Below, piece by piece: positions 1-42,371 of a stretch of DNA of 42,371 nt. The position numbers and the translations under genes were made by a program. Under the pieces are notes generated by a model that was not told the DNA's origin, ran no database searches, and worked only from the letters and a program-made list of their open reading frames with translations. This DNA comes from a virus, in IMG/VR virus record IMGVR_UViG_3300027865_000015, positions 1-42,371 of that record. The stretch is one strand, 5' to 3'. Positions within the stretch are counted from its first letter, which is position 1; every line of letters begins with the position of its first letter.

Positions 1-591
1 CATGGAACAAAATTATACAGAATTGAATGCATCAAGAAATTTAATTGTATTGACAGCGGGGATTTAGGGGGGTATATTAGCAGTGAGACGAGCCTGTCTC
101 AGGCCGGTGATGCGTGGGTATACGGTGATGCGTGGGTATACGGTGATGCAAGGGTATCCGGTAATGCAAGGGTATCCGGTAATGCGTGGGTATACGGTAA
201 TGCAAGGGTATCCGGTAATGCGTGTGTATCCGGTGATGCGTGGGTATCCGGTGATGCAAGGGTATCCGGTGGTGCGTGTGTATGCGGTAATGCAAGGGTA
301 TCCGGTGATGCAGAGGTATACGGTGATGCAAGGGTATCCGGTGATGCAGAGGTATACGGTGGTGCGTGGGAGGTATCTCCCCTTCAAATGCAAGGAACCA
401 AACATTTTGTTACGATGTCGTCAAAAACGACATTGTCCATAGGATGCGAAATGCACACAATAAAGAAATGGATTAAGGACGGGAAAGCTATTGGTAAAAA
501 TAATGGATATTCCAAGGAGCAGATAGCTGAATACTTGCTATATATTAAATTGGCAGAAAAGCTATATGTAAAAAAGAAAGGAAAGAAATAA
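1..591 (+). CDS. Hexapeptide-repeat beta-helix protein, 3' part (5' end lies at the other window end)
   Basis: The frame is open from base 1 to the TAA at 589-591; the start codon is at 41656 across the circle junction. The protein has a 35-residue N-terminal lead-in, then six-residue repeats of the form G-[D/N/G]-A-x-V-[Y/S/C], then a conserved C-terminal domain of about 70 residues (MQGTKHFVT, SIGCEMHTIKKW, IGKNNGYS, EYLLYIKLAEKLY). An A-x-V-x-G repeat with small residues in fixed places fits a left-handed parallel beta-helix, as in hexapeptide transferases and related phage proteins; no catalytic motif is seen. The C-terminal segment recurs in this phage family from memory. It sits among early genes, so a soluble intracellular role is as likely as a virion role. 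Function unknown. Confidence 0.85.
   Translation, partial: HGTKLYRIECIKKFNCIDSGDLGGYISSETSLSQAGDAWVYGDAWVYGDARVSGNARVSGNAWVYGNARVSGNACVSGDAWVSGDARVSGGACVCGNARVSGDAEVYGDARVSGDAEVYGGAWEVSPLQMQGTKHFVTMSSKTTLSIGCEMHTIKKWIKDGKAIGKNNGYSKEQIAEYLLYIKLAEKLYVKKKGKK
106..375 (+). repeat. 18-bp tandem array, 15 units (left allele)
   Basis: Fifteen in-frame 18-bp units, the last degenerate (GGAWEV). Variation is confined to set positions: GAT/AAT/GGT for the first residue, linked pairs GCG-TGG, GCG-TGT, GCA-AGG and GCA-GAG in the middle, and TAC/TCC/TGC before GGT. The GTA and GGT codons never change, even silently. Only the first three units and the last are shared in order with the 26-unit array at 41803-42270. 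GCA-GAG units (DAEV) occur only here. Confidence 0.95.
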
Positions 592-607: not shown

Positions 608-775
608 ATGCCAAAATTAACGGAAGTTGAGAAATCAGCATTAAGTGCAAGACAGATACTAAGGCAAACTAAGTCGGATTCGTTTCGCGGTTACTGCATG
701 AAGGAATGCATGATGCAAGAATTGGCCAAAATAATAAACAGAGAGGGGATTAATAATGCAAGGGAAAACAAATAA
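608..775 (+). CDS. Small helical protein, duplicated gene copy A
   Basis: 55 codons from an ATG preceded by AAGGTGGTG, giving a polar helical protein (MPKLTEVEKSALSARQ...). Residues 7-50 are encoded by DNA identical to copy B at 41331-41483; only the ends differ. No known domain is recognised; two cysteines and several methionines lie in the CMKECMM segment. It overlaps the next gene by 20 bases. It follows the beta-helix gene, while copy B lies two genes before it, so the two copies flank that gene on the circular map. Confidence 0.7.
   Translation: MPKLTEVEKSALSARQILRQTKSDSFRGYCMKECMMQELAKIINREGINNARENK
626..756 (+). repeat. 131-bp perfect direct repeat, copy A
   Basis: Identical base for base to 41349-41479 and in the same orientation. 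On the circular map the copies are about 1 kb apart and enclose the zinc-finger gene (41480-41659) and the beta-helix gene. Silent positions are also identical, so the duplication is recent or kept uniform by gene conversion. Confidence 0.95.
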
Positions 776-2134: not shown

Positions 2135-3247
2135 ATGTGTAATTTTGTTTCAGGGATTATAACTAAATCAGGGAAGGTATACTTTAATGAGGAATTGGAG
2201 TCACTGAGCGATGATTCGCACTCGAAAATACTTAAAGTAAACAATATAAAAGATAATACAGCCGATCCAGAAAAAAAGCAGTTTGCTAGGTTTGAGTATT
2301 ATCCCAACAGTGGTCATGATTATTTTTCGGATTATTCAAACTGGAAATTACACATAGACGAAAGCGTTGTCCCGTTCTGGCTAAAGAAAAGGCATGAAAA
2401 AAAATGCATAGAGGCTACGCAGGAACACTTACGTAACATAATTTTCAAGGATACCGAAATAGGGGAATTGAAAAACGGGGTTTGGTTACTAAAGAATTGT
2501 GTAGTTGATCAATTCTTATCCGGTACAATATTGCAGATAGGGGGTAGCTCCACGGTTAAAGAGATGTGGGGTAGCTCCACGGTTAAAGAGATGTGGGGTA
2601 GCTCCACGGTTCAAAGGATGGGGGGTAGCTCCACGGTTCAAAGGATGGGGGGTAGCTCCACGGTTCAAGAGATGGGGGGTAGCTCCACGGTTCAAGGGAT
2701 GTGGGGTAGCTCCACGGTTCAAGAGATGTGGGATAGCTCCACGGTTAAATGGATGTGGGGTAGCTCCACGGTTAAAGAGATGTGGGGTAGCTCCACGGTT
2801 CAAAGGATGAGGGATAGCTCCACGGTTAAAGGGATGTGGGATAGCTCCACGGTTCAAGAGATGAGGGGTAGCTCCACGGTTCAAGAGATGGGGGGTAGCT
2901 CCACGGTTAAAGAGATGTGGGGTAGCTCCACGGTTAAAGGGATGTGGGGTAGCCCCACGGTTCAAAGGATGTGGGGTAGCTCCACGGTTAAATGGATGTG
3001 GGGTAGCTCCACGGTTCAAGGGATGGGGGATGGCTCCACGGTTCAAAGGATGAGGGATAGCTCCACGGTTCAAGAGATGAGGGGTAGCTCCACGGTTCAA
3101 ATGATGAGGGGTAGCTCCACGGTTCAAGGGATGTGGGATAGCTCCACGGTTAAAGGGATGTGGGATAGCTCCATAGCAATAAACAGGGGTAGTCATATTT
3201 ATATTCCAGGTAAAAAAATCGAAAAGCCAAAGAAAATAAAAATATGA
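2135..3247 (+). CDS. Nonapeptide GSSTV-repeat protein
   Basis: The N-terminal 135 residues (MCNFVSGIITKSGKVYF, DDSHSKIL, FARFEYYPNSGHDYFSDYSNWKLHIDES, PFWL) form a domain that I recall in phage proteins linked to repeat tracts. It is followed by 23 copies of [G/D]SSTV[K/Q]xM[W/G/R] and a short basic tail. Fixed small and valine positions every nine residues suggest a solenoid beta-structure with variable residues on one face. Variable codons differ by first- and second-base changes, while the SSTV codons are uniform. It has no signal peptide or enzyme motif. ATG behind AAGGAG; the stop overlaps the next start (ATGA). Function unknown. Confidence 0.85.
   Translation: MCNFVSGIITKSGKVYFNEELESLSDDSHSKILKVNNIKDNTADPEKKQFARFEYYPNSGHDYFSDYSNWKLHIDESVVPFWLKKRHEKKCIEATQEHLRNIIFKDTEIGELKNGVWLLKNCVVDQFLSGTILQIGGSSTVKEMWGSSTVKEMWGSSTVQRMGGSSTVQRMGGSSTVQEMGGSSTVQGMWGSSTVQEMWDSSTVKWMWGSSTVKEMWGSSTVQRMRDSSTVKGMWDSSTVQEMRGSSTVQEMGGSSTVKEMWGSSTVKGMWGSPTVQRMWGSSTVKWMWGSSTVQGMGDGSTVQRMRDSSTVQEMRGSSTVQMMRGSSTVQGMWDSSTVKGMWDSSIAINRGSHIYIPGKKIEKPKKIKI
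2543..3163 (+). repeat. 27-bp tandem array, 23 units plus a partial unit
   Basis: In-frame 27-bp units starting GG/GA-T-AGC-TCC-ACG-GTT. The variable sites are AAA/CAA (Lys/Gln), the next codon (GAG, AGG, GGG, TGG, ATG) and the last codon (TGG, GGG, AGG). Silent sites hardly change; only two units have altered S or ST codons (GSPTV and DGSTV). A degenerate 24th unit follows. The same period opens a long but spurious frame on the minus strand. Confidence 0.95.
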
Positions 3248-32993: not shown

Positions 32994-34061
32994 CTATGGA
33001 GTAGTCCATGTCCACTTAACCGTCATGTCACCACCATCGTTACCAGCCCCCGCAGCGTTACAGCTTACAGTCATCGCGTCACCATCCACTAGGTCTGGAT
33101 CACTAAATGTAGTAGTTGTCTTGAAATCACTAGTTGGTAAATTCATTGTAAGAGTAGCTACACCTGTACCGTTTACAGTTAGATCAATATTTGGCGAAGC
33201 CCCCCCACCACTATCGTGAGTCAAGAAAGAAGCCTCGAAACTACGCAGTGTACTATCACCACTACCGTGAACGTATAGTGTTAATGCGAATTTTTCTAAC
33301 ATATCCGGCTCAACGGTTCCCAATACATTTCCAGGTAAGACAAATTGTGCGCTATGAGTTACCGTGCCACCACCACTTGCGGCAGTTGTCATTTCAGTCC
33401 CATCACTAAATTTGTATGAATTTGCGGATACTGTTCCTGCAACATCTAGTTTATTTTGTGGATCATCAGTACCGATGCCTACATTCCCGTTATCCGTGAC
33501 AACCACCCTTTCTTTCCAGCCGCTTGCGTATGTGAAAATCACAACACCCTTCTGATGCGCCCTAAGTTGTATCCCTTCCGATCCATCACCACTAGCATCA
33601 CCCTTGTCATGATCGGTCGCAATATATGGATTTCCTGATGTAGACTTTATGCCGTTTGCCAATCGTATGGTCGTGTTATAAGTAATTGCTCCTGTATAAT
33701 TCGGAGTCACGTATCGAGTATCTGCATTCGCCGTGATAATCCCAATTGAGCTAATACCCGCGTATCGCAAGTCCGCGTTCGCCGTGATAATCCCAATTGA
33801 GCTAATACCCGCGTATCGCAAGTCTGCATTCGCCGTGATAATCCCAATTGAGCTAATACCCGCGTATCGCAAGTCTGCATTCGCCGTGATAATCCCAATT
33901 GAGCTAATACCCGCGTATCGCAAGTCTGCATTCGTAGTTGTCATCCCTCCTCCAACTTCGTCAACACCACCACTCATTGAATATCCATTATGATGTGCCT
34001 GTGTGAATGATGTAAATACCACAAGCAATGAGAATAGTAAGAATAATTTTATGTATTTCAT
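32994..34061 (-). CDS. Tail-fibre-like protein with signal peptide and 17-residue repeats
   Basis: 355 residues. Signal peptide ends SFTQA. Four copies of a 17-residue unit (NADLRYAGISSIGIITA) follow, then a part typical of trimeric fibres (NVGIGTDDPQNKLDVAGTVSANSYKFSDGTEMTTA), and a C-terminal beta domain. NADxRY repeats are common in phage fibre shafts. A signal peptide on such a protein is odd. RBS AAAGGAGAT. Confidence 0.7.
   Translation of the reverse strand: MKYIKLFLLFSLLVVFTSFTQAHHNGYSMSGGVDEVGGGMTTTNADLRYAGISSIGIITANADLRYAGISSIGIITANADLRYAGISSIGIITANADLRYAGISSIGIITANADTRYVTPNYTGAITYNTTIRLANGIKSTSGNPYIATDHDKGDASGDGSEGIQLRAHQKGVVIFTYASGWKERVVVTDNGNVGIGTDDPQNKLDVAGTVSANSYKFSDGTEMTTAASGGGTVTHSAQFVLPGNVLGTVEPDMLEKFALTLYVHGSGDSTLRSFEASFLTHDSGGGASPNIDLTVNGTGVATLTMNLPTSDFKTTTTFSDPDLVDGDAMTVSCNAAGAGNDGGDMTVKWTWTTP
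33724..33927 (-). repeat. 51-bp tandem repeat, 4 units
   Basis: Four nearly identical in-frame 51-bp units encoding the 17-residue fibre shaft repeats. Only one or two bases differ between units (GCATTC/GCGTTC, GTCT/GTCC). Copy number could vary and change fibre length. Confidence 0.95.
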
Positions 34062-38524: not shown

Positions 38525-38599
38525 TGGCTGGCACGGCAGGACTCGAACCTGCATTTGTCCGGTTAACAGCCGGAAGCATTACCATTATGCTACACGCCA
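38525..38599 (-). tRNA. tRNA-Asn (GTT anticodon)
   Basis: All arms can be folded by eye: acceptor TGGCGTG/CGTGCCA (7 bp with G-T pairs), D arm GCATAATGGTAATGC, anticodon arm TCCGG-CTGTTAA-CCGGA with GTT, T arm GCAGG-TTCGAGT-CCTGC, discriminator G and an encoded CCA. It is transcribed at the start of the late arm, just before the small gene and terL. Confidence 0.92.
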
Positions 38600-39059: not shown

Positions 39060-39370
39060 CTTATTATCTTATTTAATTTAATACATAACTGTCTAATATA
39101 CTTATATTATTATTATCTATTATTAAGAATATTATAGACTATACTTATTATCATAGTATTTTATACAGTATAGATTATATTAGTTATATTAGTTACTTAA
39201 TAGATATATTATACAGTATATTATACTTATACTTAATAATATACCTATATACTAATTAATATATTATATCATAGTTTATTATATATACTTAATATTATAT
39301 TATATTAATATACATAGTAATATATATATTATATTATATTATATATTATACTAATATAATCTATATATTA
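39060..39370. other. Extreme AT-rich block, candidate origin unwinding region
   Basis: About 310 bp made almost only of A and T, with many short TATA, ATTA and TATACAGTATA-type motifs and many stop codons in all frames. Its G and C content is far below the rest of the genome. Such a block next to repeated boxes is typical of DNA unwinding elements, but could also be a packing or bending site. Confidence 0.6.
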
Positions 39371-41330: not shown

Positions 41331-41483
41331 ATGGTGGAATTAACAGAGGTTGAGAAATCAGCATTAAGTGCAAGACAGATACTAAGGCAAACTAAGTCGG
41401 ATTCGTTTCGCGGTTACTGCATGAAGGAATGCATGATGCAAGAATTGGCCAAAATAATAAACAGAGAGGGGATTAATAAGTGA
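41331..41483 (+). CDS. Small helical protein, duplicated gene copy B
   Basis: 50 residues, ATG behind AAAGGAG. Identical to copy A (608-775) from residue 7 to residue 49; the N-terminus (MVELTE versus MPKLTE) and C-terminus differ. It may be the parent copy, since it has a complete spacing to its own ribosome site. Function unknown. Confidence 0.65.
   Translation: MVELTEVEKSALSARQILRQTKSDSFRGYCMKECMMQELAKIINREGINK
41349..41479 (+). repeat. 131-bp perfect direct repeat, copy B
   Basis: Same sequence and orientation as 626-756. Together they bracket about 1 kb holding the zinc-finger and beta-helix genes on the circular map. Confidence 0.95.
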
Positions 41484-41659
41484 TTACATTTCTTGTGAAA
41501 GTATATTGCTCAATCCAAGAACGTGTCAGGCAATGCAAGTGTGGTGGTAAGCTATTAAAACGACAGTCAGTGAGGACAGGTGTATTTTTGGGTTGTGAGA
41601 ATTTCCCTAACTGTGGATATACTGAGTCCCTAGAAAAAAAGAAAGGTGGTAAGAAATGA
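41480..41659 (+). CDS. Topoisomerase-type zinc finger protein, 59 aa
   Basis: GTG start behind GAGGGG, overlapping the previous stop. The pattern CKCGGKLLKRQSVRTGVFLGCENFPNCGYT matches the C-terminal zinc finger of type IA topoisomerases (four Cys; L-x-x-R ... F-x-G-C-x-x-F-P-x-C). Stand-alone versions occur in phages. Probably binds single-stranded DNA or RNA. ATGA overlap with the beta-helix gene. Confidence 0.7.
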   Translation: MITFLVKVYCSIQERVRQCKCGGKLLKRQSVRTGVFLGCENFPNCGYTESLEKKKGGKK

Positions 41660-42371
41660 AGAAATACAAGCTTTTAAAAAGAGACTATATTGAAATACAT
41701 GGAACAAAATTATACAGAATTGAATGCATCAAGAAATTTAATTGTATTGACAGCGGGGATTTAGGGGGGTATATTAGCAGTGAGACGAGCCTGTCTCAGG
41801 CCGGTGATGCGTGGGTATACGGTGATGCGTGGGTATACGGTGATGCAAGGGTATCCGGTGATGCGTGGGTATACGGTGATGCAAGGGTATGCGGTAATGC
41901 AAGGGTATACGGTAATGCAAGGGTATACGGTAATGCGTGGGTATCCGGTGATGCAAGGGTATCCGGTGATGCAAGGGTATACGGTAATGCAAGGGTATCC
42001 GGTAATGCGTGGGTATCCGGTGATGCGTGTGTATCCGGTAATGCGTGGGTATCCGGTGATGCAAGGGTATCCGGTAATGCGTGGGTATCCGGTAATGCGT
42101 GGGTATCCGGTAATGCGTGGGTATCCGGTGGTGCGTGGGTATGCGGTAATGCAAGGGTATACGGTAATGCAAGGGTATACGGTGATGCGTGGGTATCCGG
42201 TAATGCGTGGGTATGCGGTAATGCGTGTGTATGCGGTAATGCAAGGGTATACGGTGGTGCGTGGGAGGTATCTCCCCTTCAAATGCAAGGAACCAAACAT
42301 TTTGTTACGATGTCGTCAAAAACGACATTGTCCATAGGATGCGAAATGCACACAATAAAGAAATGGATTAA
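41656..42371 (+). CDS. Hexapeptide-repeat beta-helix protein, 5' part (runs off the window end)
   Basis: ATG behind AAGGTGG, overlapping the stop of the zinc-finger gene. N-terminal 49 residues (KKYKLLKRDYIEIHGTKLYRIECIKKFNCIDSGDLGGYISS) lead into 26 six-residue repeats, then the conserved C-terminal domain begins and the window ends. It is the same gene as 1-591 but with a longer and different repeat array. The lead-in G-D-L-G-G-Y-I motif is typical of this repeat family. No stop codon inside the window. Confidence 0.88.
   Translation, partial: MKKYKLLKRDYIEIHGTKLYRIECIKKFNCIDSGDLGGYISSETSLSQAGDAWVYGDAWVYGDARVSGDAWVYGDARVCGNARVYGNARVYGNAWVSGDARVSGDARVYGNARVSGNAWVSGDACVSGNAWVSGDARVSGNAWVSGNAWVSGNAWVSGGAWVCGNARVYGNARVYGDAWVSGNAWVCGNACVCGNARVYGGAWEVSPLQMQGTKHFVTMSSKTTLSIGCEMHTIKKWI
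41698..42371 (+). repeat. Terminal redundancy with window bases 1-476
   Basis: Bases 41698-41802 equal 1-105 and 42271-42371 equal 376-476. Only the array between differs (26 versus 15 units, 198 bp). The overlap shows the window is a circular or terminally redundant molecule. Confidence 0.95.
41803..42270 (+). repeat. 18-bp tandem array, 26 units (right allele)
   Basis: Twenty-six in-frame units of the same 18-bp type as 106-375. It has four consecutive or near-consecutive GNAWVS units and no GDAEVY units. Units 1-3 and the last one match the left array; unit order in between does not. Confidence 0.95.

Follow-up and report, generated by a model that had tools for sequence, protein, structure and literature searches.

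The array of 18-bp units in an early, non-structural hexapeptide solenoid gene of a tailed phage is probably a true hypervariable locus (we put this at roughly 0.65), one driven by recombination, diversifying at its outward-facing residues, and represented at the two ends of the assembled contig by two versions. The window, meaning the whole stretch of DNA analyzed, is IMG/VR record IMGVR_UViG_3300027865_000015, a single phage contig of 42,371 bp. Its minus strand carries the terminase, portal, capsid and head-closure genes of the tailed phage. Helicase and primase genes belong to an early plus-strand operon that spans the contig ends, unbroken there in strand and in GC skew, and both ends overlap within one solenoid gene (1-476 versus 41698-42371). 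The features are as follows.

41656..42371, plus strand: solenoid gene, right copy; open reading frame matching PF18836 (E 6.2e-38, 13 stretches) and phrog_5070 / phrog_7964; N-terminal cap (41656-41802), 26 hexapeptide units and the start of the C-terminal cap, truncated by the contig end
41803..42270, plus strand: right array, 26 x 18 bp, from repeat and unit listing
1..591, plus strand: solenoid gene, left copy; open reading frame matching PF18836 (E 2.4e-19); first 14 codons missing, 15 units, full C-terminal cap
106..375, plus strand: left array, 15 x 18 bp, from repeat and unit listing
1..162, plus strand: 5' shared stretch, identical to 41698-41859
351..476, plus strand: 3' shared stretch, 126 bp, identical to 42246-42371
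376..591, plus strand: C-terminal cap domain with a predicted beta-beta-alpha-alpha fold, whose Gly-Cys motif relatives conserve; pLDDT 81-91 over most of it
41338..41480, plus strand: small gene X, first copy, 140/142 identical to 615-757
615..757, plus strand: small gene X, second copy, 98.6% identical to 41338-41480
2135..3247, plus strand: second solenoid-like gene of the same operon, 23 x 27-bp units, with 10 nonsynonymous and 0 synonymous changes among units

Three further elements of the window lie outside this locus. A 51-bp repeat (33721-33934; 4.2 copies at 97%) sits inside the minus-strand gene 32994-34061. AT-rich repeats at 39096-39370 occupy a divergent intergenic region upstream of the early operon, a possible origin or control region. 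A tRNA-Asn (GTT) is encoded on the minus strand at 38525-38599, and Asn AAT codons are abundant in solenoid arrays.

The first base of the window recurs at 41698, and the two copies part at 163 and 41860. A preliminary description of this DNA had reported an overlap with identical flanks enclosing a left array of 15 units and a right array of 26, in an order that differs past the third unit, and the analysis bears this out. The first 162 bp and the last 126 bp of the overlap are identical, the unit counts between the shared stretches are 15 and 26 (the closing GGAWEV unit counted), and the length difference is 198 bp, or 11 x 18, a whole number of units. Units 1-3 agree. Past unit 3, the longest common subsequence of units is 4, against a mean of 3.34 for shuffled arrays, and 375 of 1000 shuffles reach 4; no residual unit order therefore remains after unit 3. 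The repeat encodes G-[D/N/G]-A-[W/R/C/E]-V-[Y/S/C]. The left array has 8 unit types and the right 12, with 4 shared, so that each has types absent from the other; GDAEVY occurs only on the left, twice, and loss of 11 units is, as had been argued, insufficient to derive one array from the other.

No 55-mer occurs more than once in the right array, the divergent parts share no match longer than 37 bp, and at every k tested between 12 and 55 the left copy has k-mers missing from the right. These results make the left array a real sequence in its own right and not a mis-threaded path through the right array. Judging from the coordinates, shared caps would give full proteins of 210 and 276 residues. 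The window holds two arrays on one contig, which alone cannot tell two alleles of one locus from tandem copies.

The gene had been described as a beta-helix repeat gene, and the profile searches agree, with PF18836, the YdcK-type beta-solenoid repeat, matched at E 6e-38. The right copy scores 125.8 bits and the left copy 68 bits, against a gathering cut-off of 30 bits; Bactofilin is also matched. The crystal structures of YdcK (2f9c, 2pig) are matched by sequence at E 2.9e-18 over the N-terminal part and the first units, and the hexapeptide solenoid repeat is common to both proteins. The phage gene differs in having its own C-terminal cap and a variable array, and it earns 73.5 bits from the full-length YdcK model of NCBIfam, NF040481, whose curated cut-off is 350 bits; it is therefore a relative with the YdcK repeat, not YdcK itself. 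Two phage families annotated as of unknown function, phrog_5070 (E 5e-87) and phrog_7964 (E 1e-83), match with the same N-terminal cap and array, while hypervariability is absent from the family description.

Two caps bracket the array. The N-terminal cap has 50 residues, and the C-terminal cap carries a conserved Gly-Cys in most aligned relatives, with Cys149 invariant and Gly148 near-invariant. The AlphaFold model of the left copy (mean pLDDT 59) has a confident C-terminal cap and a low-confidence array with pLDDT about 40; Foldseek with this model returned no significant match, the best being YdcK 2f9c at E 1.4. Histidine is absent from both arrays in the unit listing, which makes a hexapeptide acyltransferase (LbetaH) active site unlikely. 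A capped YdcK-type hexapeptide beta-solenoid, acting as an early non-structural phage protein, is the best explanation of these profile matches. IMG/VR holds about 430 relatives of the gene, and relatives sit beside helicase and repressor genes. No DNA match to it was found in E. coli genomes, and no same-species contigs were found in IMG/VR by exact flank or by terminase at the sensitivity used. PADLOC did not match it as part of an anti-phage system, a result with no bearing on phage inhibitors.

Related genomes show arrays that vary while their flanks stay fixed. Relatives L059 and L078 are identical at all 1298 flanking bases compared (548/548 and 750/750), yet have 18 and 6 units, a difference of 216 bp. 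Array lengths differ by 36 bp between L093 and L095, 270 bp between L076 and L080, and 54 bp between L071 and L097, all multiples of 18. Whole-unit steps in copy number between near-identical genomes (36, 54, 216 and 270 bp) are what defines an in-frame variable tandem repeat. L045 and L049 share 719 of 720 upstream bases, and their arrays diverge from the first unit.

In the Streptococcus thermophilus phages SFi18, Sfi19 and CHPC919 the 324-bp array is constant in length and has 10-14 differences, versus 3-6 in the other 2,650 bp, making it 17-37 times more divergent than the sequence outside (p 4e-7 to 1e-10). The sequences of SFi18 and Sfi19 predate short-read sequencing. Most swapped units in this trio are types present elsewhere in the array, which resembles conversion between units. 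In relatives, contig ends fall within the array 12 times, versus 2 over an equal upstream distance (p 0.006); one such contig, of 40,629 bp (L089 and L114), closes on itself, its two ends overlapping exactly over 141 bp where its own array begins. Arrays do not turn over quickly in every case, since some near-identical records have identical arrays: L051 and L052 are one such pair, and Bp8p-C and Bp8p-T differ by one base, outside the array. Three lines of comparison between genomes indicate that the array is the variable part in relatives and that its variation is real biology for the gene family.

The preliminary description had also held that every allele keeps the reading frame. That is so for the window, where whole units separate the two arrays, but not throughout the family: frame-broken arrays occur in 1.139.B, 1.209.O, ZHX and L109, some of which may be assembly errors. 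A rule of full turns, with unit number constrained by a coil of three, was rejected, since unit numbers differ by 11, 2 and 22, none of which is divisible by three; three-fold periodicity was also looked for in the outward residues and none was found.

In regular units of the window, codons 1, 3 and 5 are GGT, GCA/GCG and GTA, and variation falls at codons 2, 4 and 6. The sole synonymous change, GCA/GCG, is fully tied to codon 4. Across 42 low-divergence arrays, with inward and outward codon classes taken from the known hexapeptide pattern rather than from a structural model of the protein, outward codons carry 0.81 nonsynonymous changes per site and inward codons 0.20, as against 0.47 per synonymous site. 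The outward rate exceeds the synonymous one at p 4e-6 and the inward rate falls below it at p 9e-7, values to be read in light of the shared history of units within one array and computed with no mutational-bias model. Thirteen arrays, with up to 34 core units, lack any synonymous change. The pattern is consistent with conservation of the core and selection for differences at the surface, and the outward residues (D/N/G, W/R/C/E and Y/S/C) appear to be under diversifying selection.

Two other readings accept the arrays as real, and we consider each unlikely, though worth serious attention. According to the first, the chief rival to the allele reading, at least two neighboring solenoid genes carry different arrays, the contig breaks between them, and its ends are paralogues. 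Tandem copies are possible because relatives carry neighboring copies and because, on a circular map, the two copies of gene X flank the solenoid gene as a 142-bp direct repeat (98.6% identity), a layout favoring duplication. Of 80 relatives, 10 have at least two copies of the N-terminal motif in the locus retrieved. In L012 (3001-3612) the solenoid gene is immediately succeeded by a second tandem copy, which the contig end cuts off after its opening part and which matches the first over at least 71 bp; phiXacJX1 carries two copies side by side, CP1 and MK21 a single one each. Against this, the contig can be closed into a circle that needs just one copy, a simpler solution, and none of the relatives examined has a complete tandem pair whose two ends match as closely as those of the window. 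On a circular map a single transcription unit and a single GC-skew arm pass across the joined ends, and one gene with two alleles is the simplest arrangement; the window arrays are most simply two alleles in the sampled population. The preliminary description had offered variation among genome copies or two distinct copies. Variation of the array in 18-bp steps between fixed flanks stands for the family; the choice between alleles of one population and tandem copies, for the window itself, stays a matter of likelihood.

The second of these readings grants the variation and denies it a function: the array would be a neutral minisatellite, varying by repeat slippage only, with length and outward residues unconstrained. 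The wide range of unit numbers among relatives, from almost none (L082) to 40 (L088), and the broken array of L109 are in keeping with that. Such a minisatellite would account for the length changes, though not for the codon pattern: core codons are strongly conserved, and outward codons change more than synonymous ones, which relaxation alone cannot give. The caps, moreover, are kept across phages of unrelated hosts.

That a short-read assembler invented one of the two window arrays is far less probable. Repeats are known to break up virome assemblies (PMC6350398). The Vibrio phages 1.034.O and 1.034.X differ by two SNPs and in the array, within 44 kb; 1.034.X is listed in its paper as a technical replicate, from short reads and a CLC assembly. 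The pair was accordingly rejected as a natural experiment on array change and counts for an artefact, as it shows that short reads and CLC can produce array differences, so that differences between short-read arrays need reads or other support. A second pair, 1.139.A and 1.139.B, differs in the array only, by 201 bp, which is not a multiple of 18 and breaks the frame; it was set aside as uninformative. For the window, an invented array is opposed by the left-only units and k-mers already described and by a two-base change (AGG to GAG) seen twice. On the right the contig stops 126 bp beyond where the two arrays converge, and on the left it begins 126 bp ahead of a variable base of unit 2, distances in keeping with a de Bruijn assembler (k near 127) that halted at real branches. 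A halt of this kind, which the end positions alone suggest, would imply a third version of the array. In the deposited Nahant records of Vibrio phages 1.034, 1.139 and 1.209 (L014-L018), pieces of the solenoid array are annotated as CRISPR spacers, an apparent misannotation.

Rewriting of array adenines from a template by the reverse transcriptase of a diversity-generating retroelement was rejected as far as tested and has next to no probability: some variants (TAC/TCC/TGC and AAT/GAT/GGT) do involve adenines, but the RVT_1 profile (PF00078), which matched control genomes, found no reverse transcriptase in the record, and the GTA adenine, which adenine mutagenesis would not spare, is unchanged in 39 of 39 regular units.

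For the favored reading, a hypervariable locus present in two versions, we propose the following mechanism, with recombination as the presumed source of variation. Near-identical 18-bp units would allow slippage, unequal exchange and short conversion tracts during phage replication, by which units would be added, removed and reshuffled in frame. The core residues Gly, Ala and Val would be kept and the outward residues mixed, each version thereby acquiring its own string of side chains and its own rod length. The protein would act in the cytoplasm, early in infection, and its outward diversity would reflect contact with a changing partner, most plausibly a host defence or competitor factor. The likeliest role, one we hold tentatively, would be that of a binding surface against such a changing host or competitor molecule, as in counter-defence.

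The second repeat gene, 2135-3247, shows the same signature on a different, 27-bp repeat. Its 23 units encode GSSTV[Q/K]xMx; a predicted model has regular strands, with pLDDT about 80 in the middle of the array, and relatives occur in gut phages. A repeat gene in Blautia phage Montmirail (L036, 2312-3310) encodes GASSNTG[D/Y/N][R/W/C], with variability limited to fixed positions.

TAL-effector-type repeats also combine near-identical units, variability at fixed positions and variable unit number, and the solenoid arrays are alike in this; those repeats are alpha-helical, DNA-binding and of another fold, so the likeness is a resemblance only. The BACON domain repeats of crAss-like phages are likewise an array of tandem units in a phage protein and have been discussed as an evolutionary hotspot (PMC6949934); they are Ig-like domains beside tail proteins, whereas the solenoid consists of 6-residue coils encoded in an early operon. 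The targets of phage diversity-generating retroelements are hypervariable proteins too, some adjoining defence or counter-defence genes (PMC8008677), but owe their variability to a reverse transcriptase. Neither variable tandem repeats nor YdcK-like solenoids are new in themselves. The literature searched, which covered few subscription journals, yielded no description of hypervariability in this gene family; in it, hypervariable solenoid arrays of early phage genes with diversifying outward positions are undescribed.

More speculatively, and with considerable doubt, phages may keep a diversity generator free of reverse transcriptase, in which recombining solenoid units would serve, inside the host cell, as interchangeable recognition modules with fixed outward positions, directed at a changing partner and built in this phage on at least two unrelated scaffolds (18-bp and 27-bp). 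If the favored reading of the solenoid gene is true, it would account for the many phage contigs that break off within this gene and for the misreading of its array by short-read assemblies and CRISPR finders. A common, unnamed early phage gene would then be hypervariable, remodeling its protein surface with no retroelement involved, pointing to a hidden front of phage-host conflict and offering a directly testable set of alleles.
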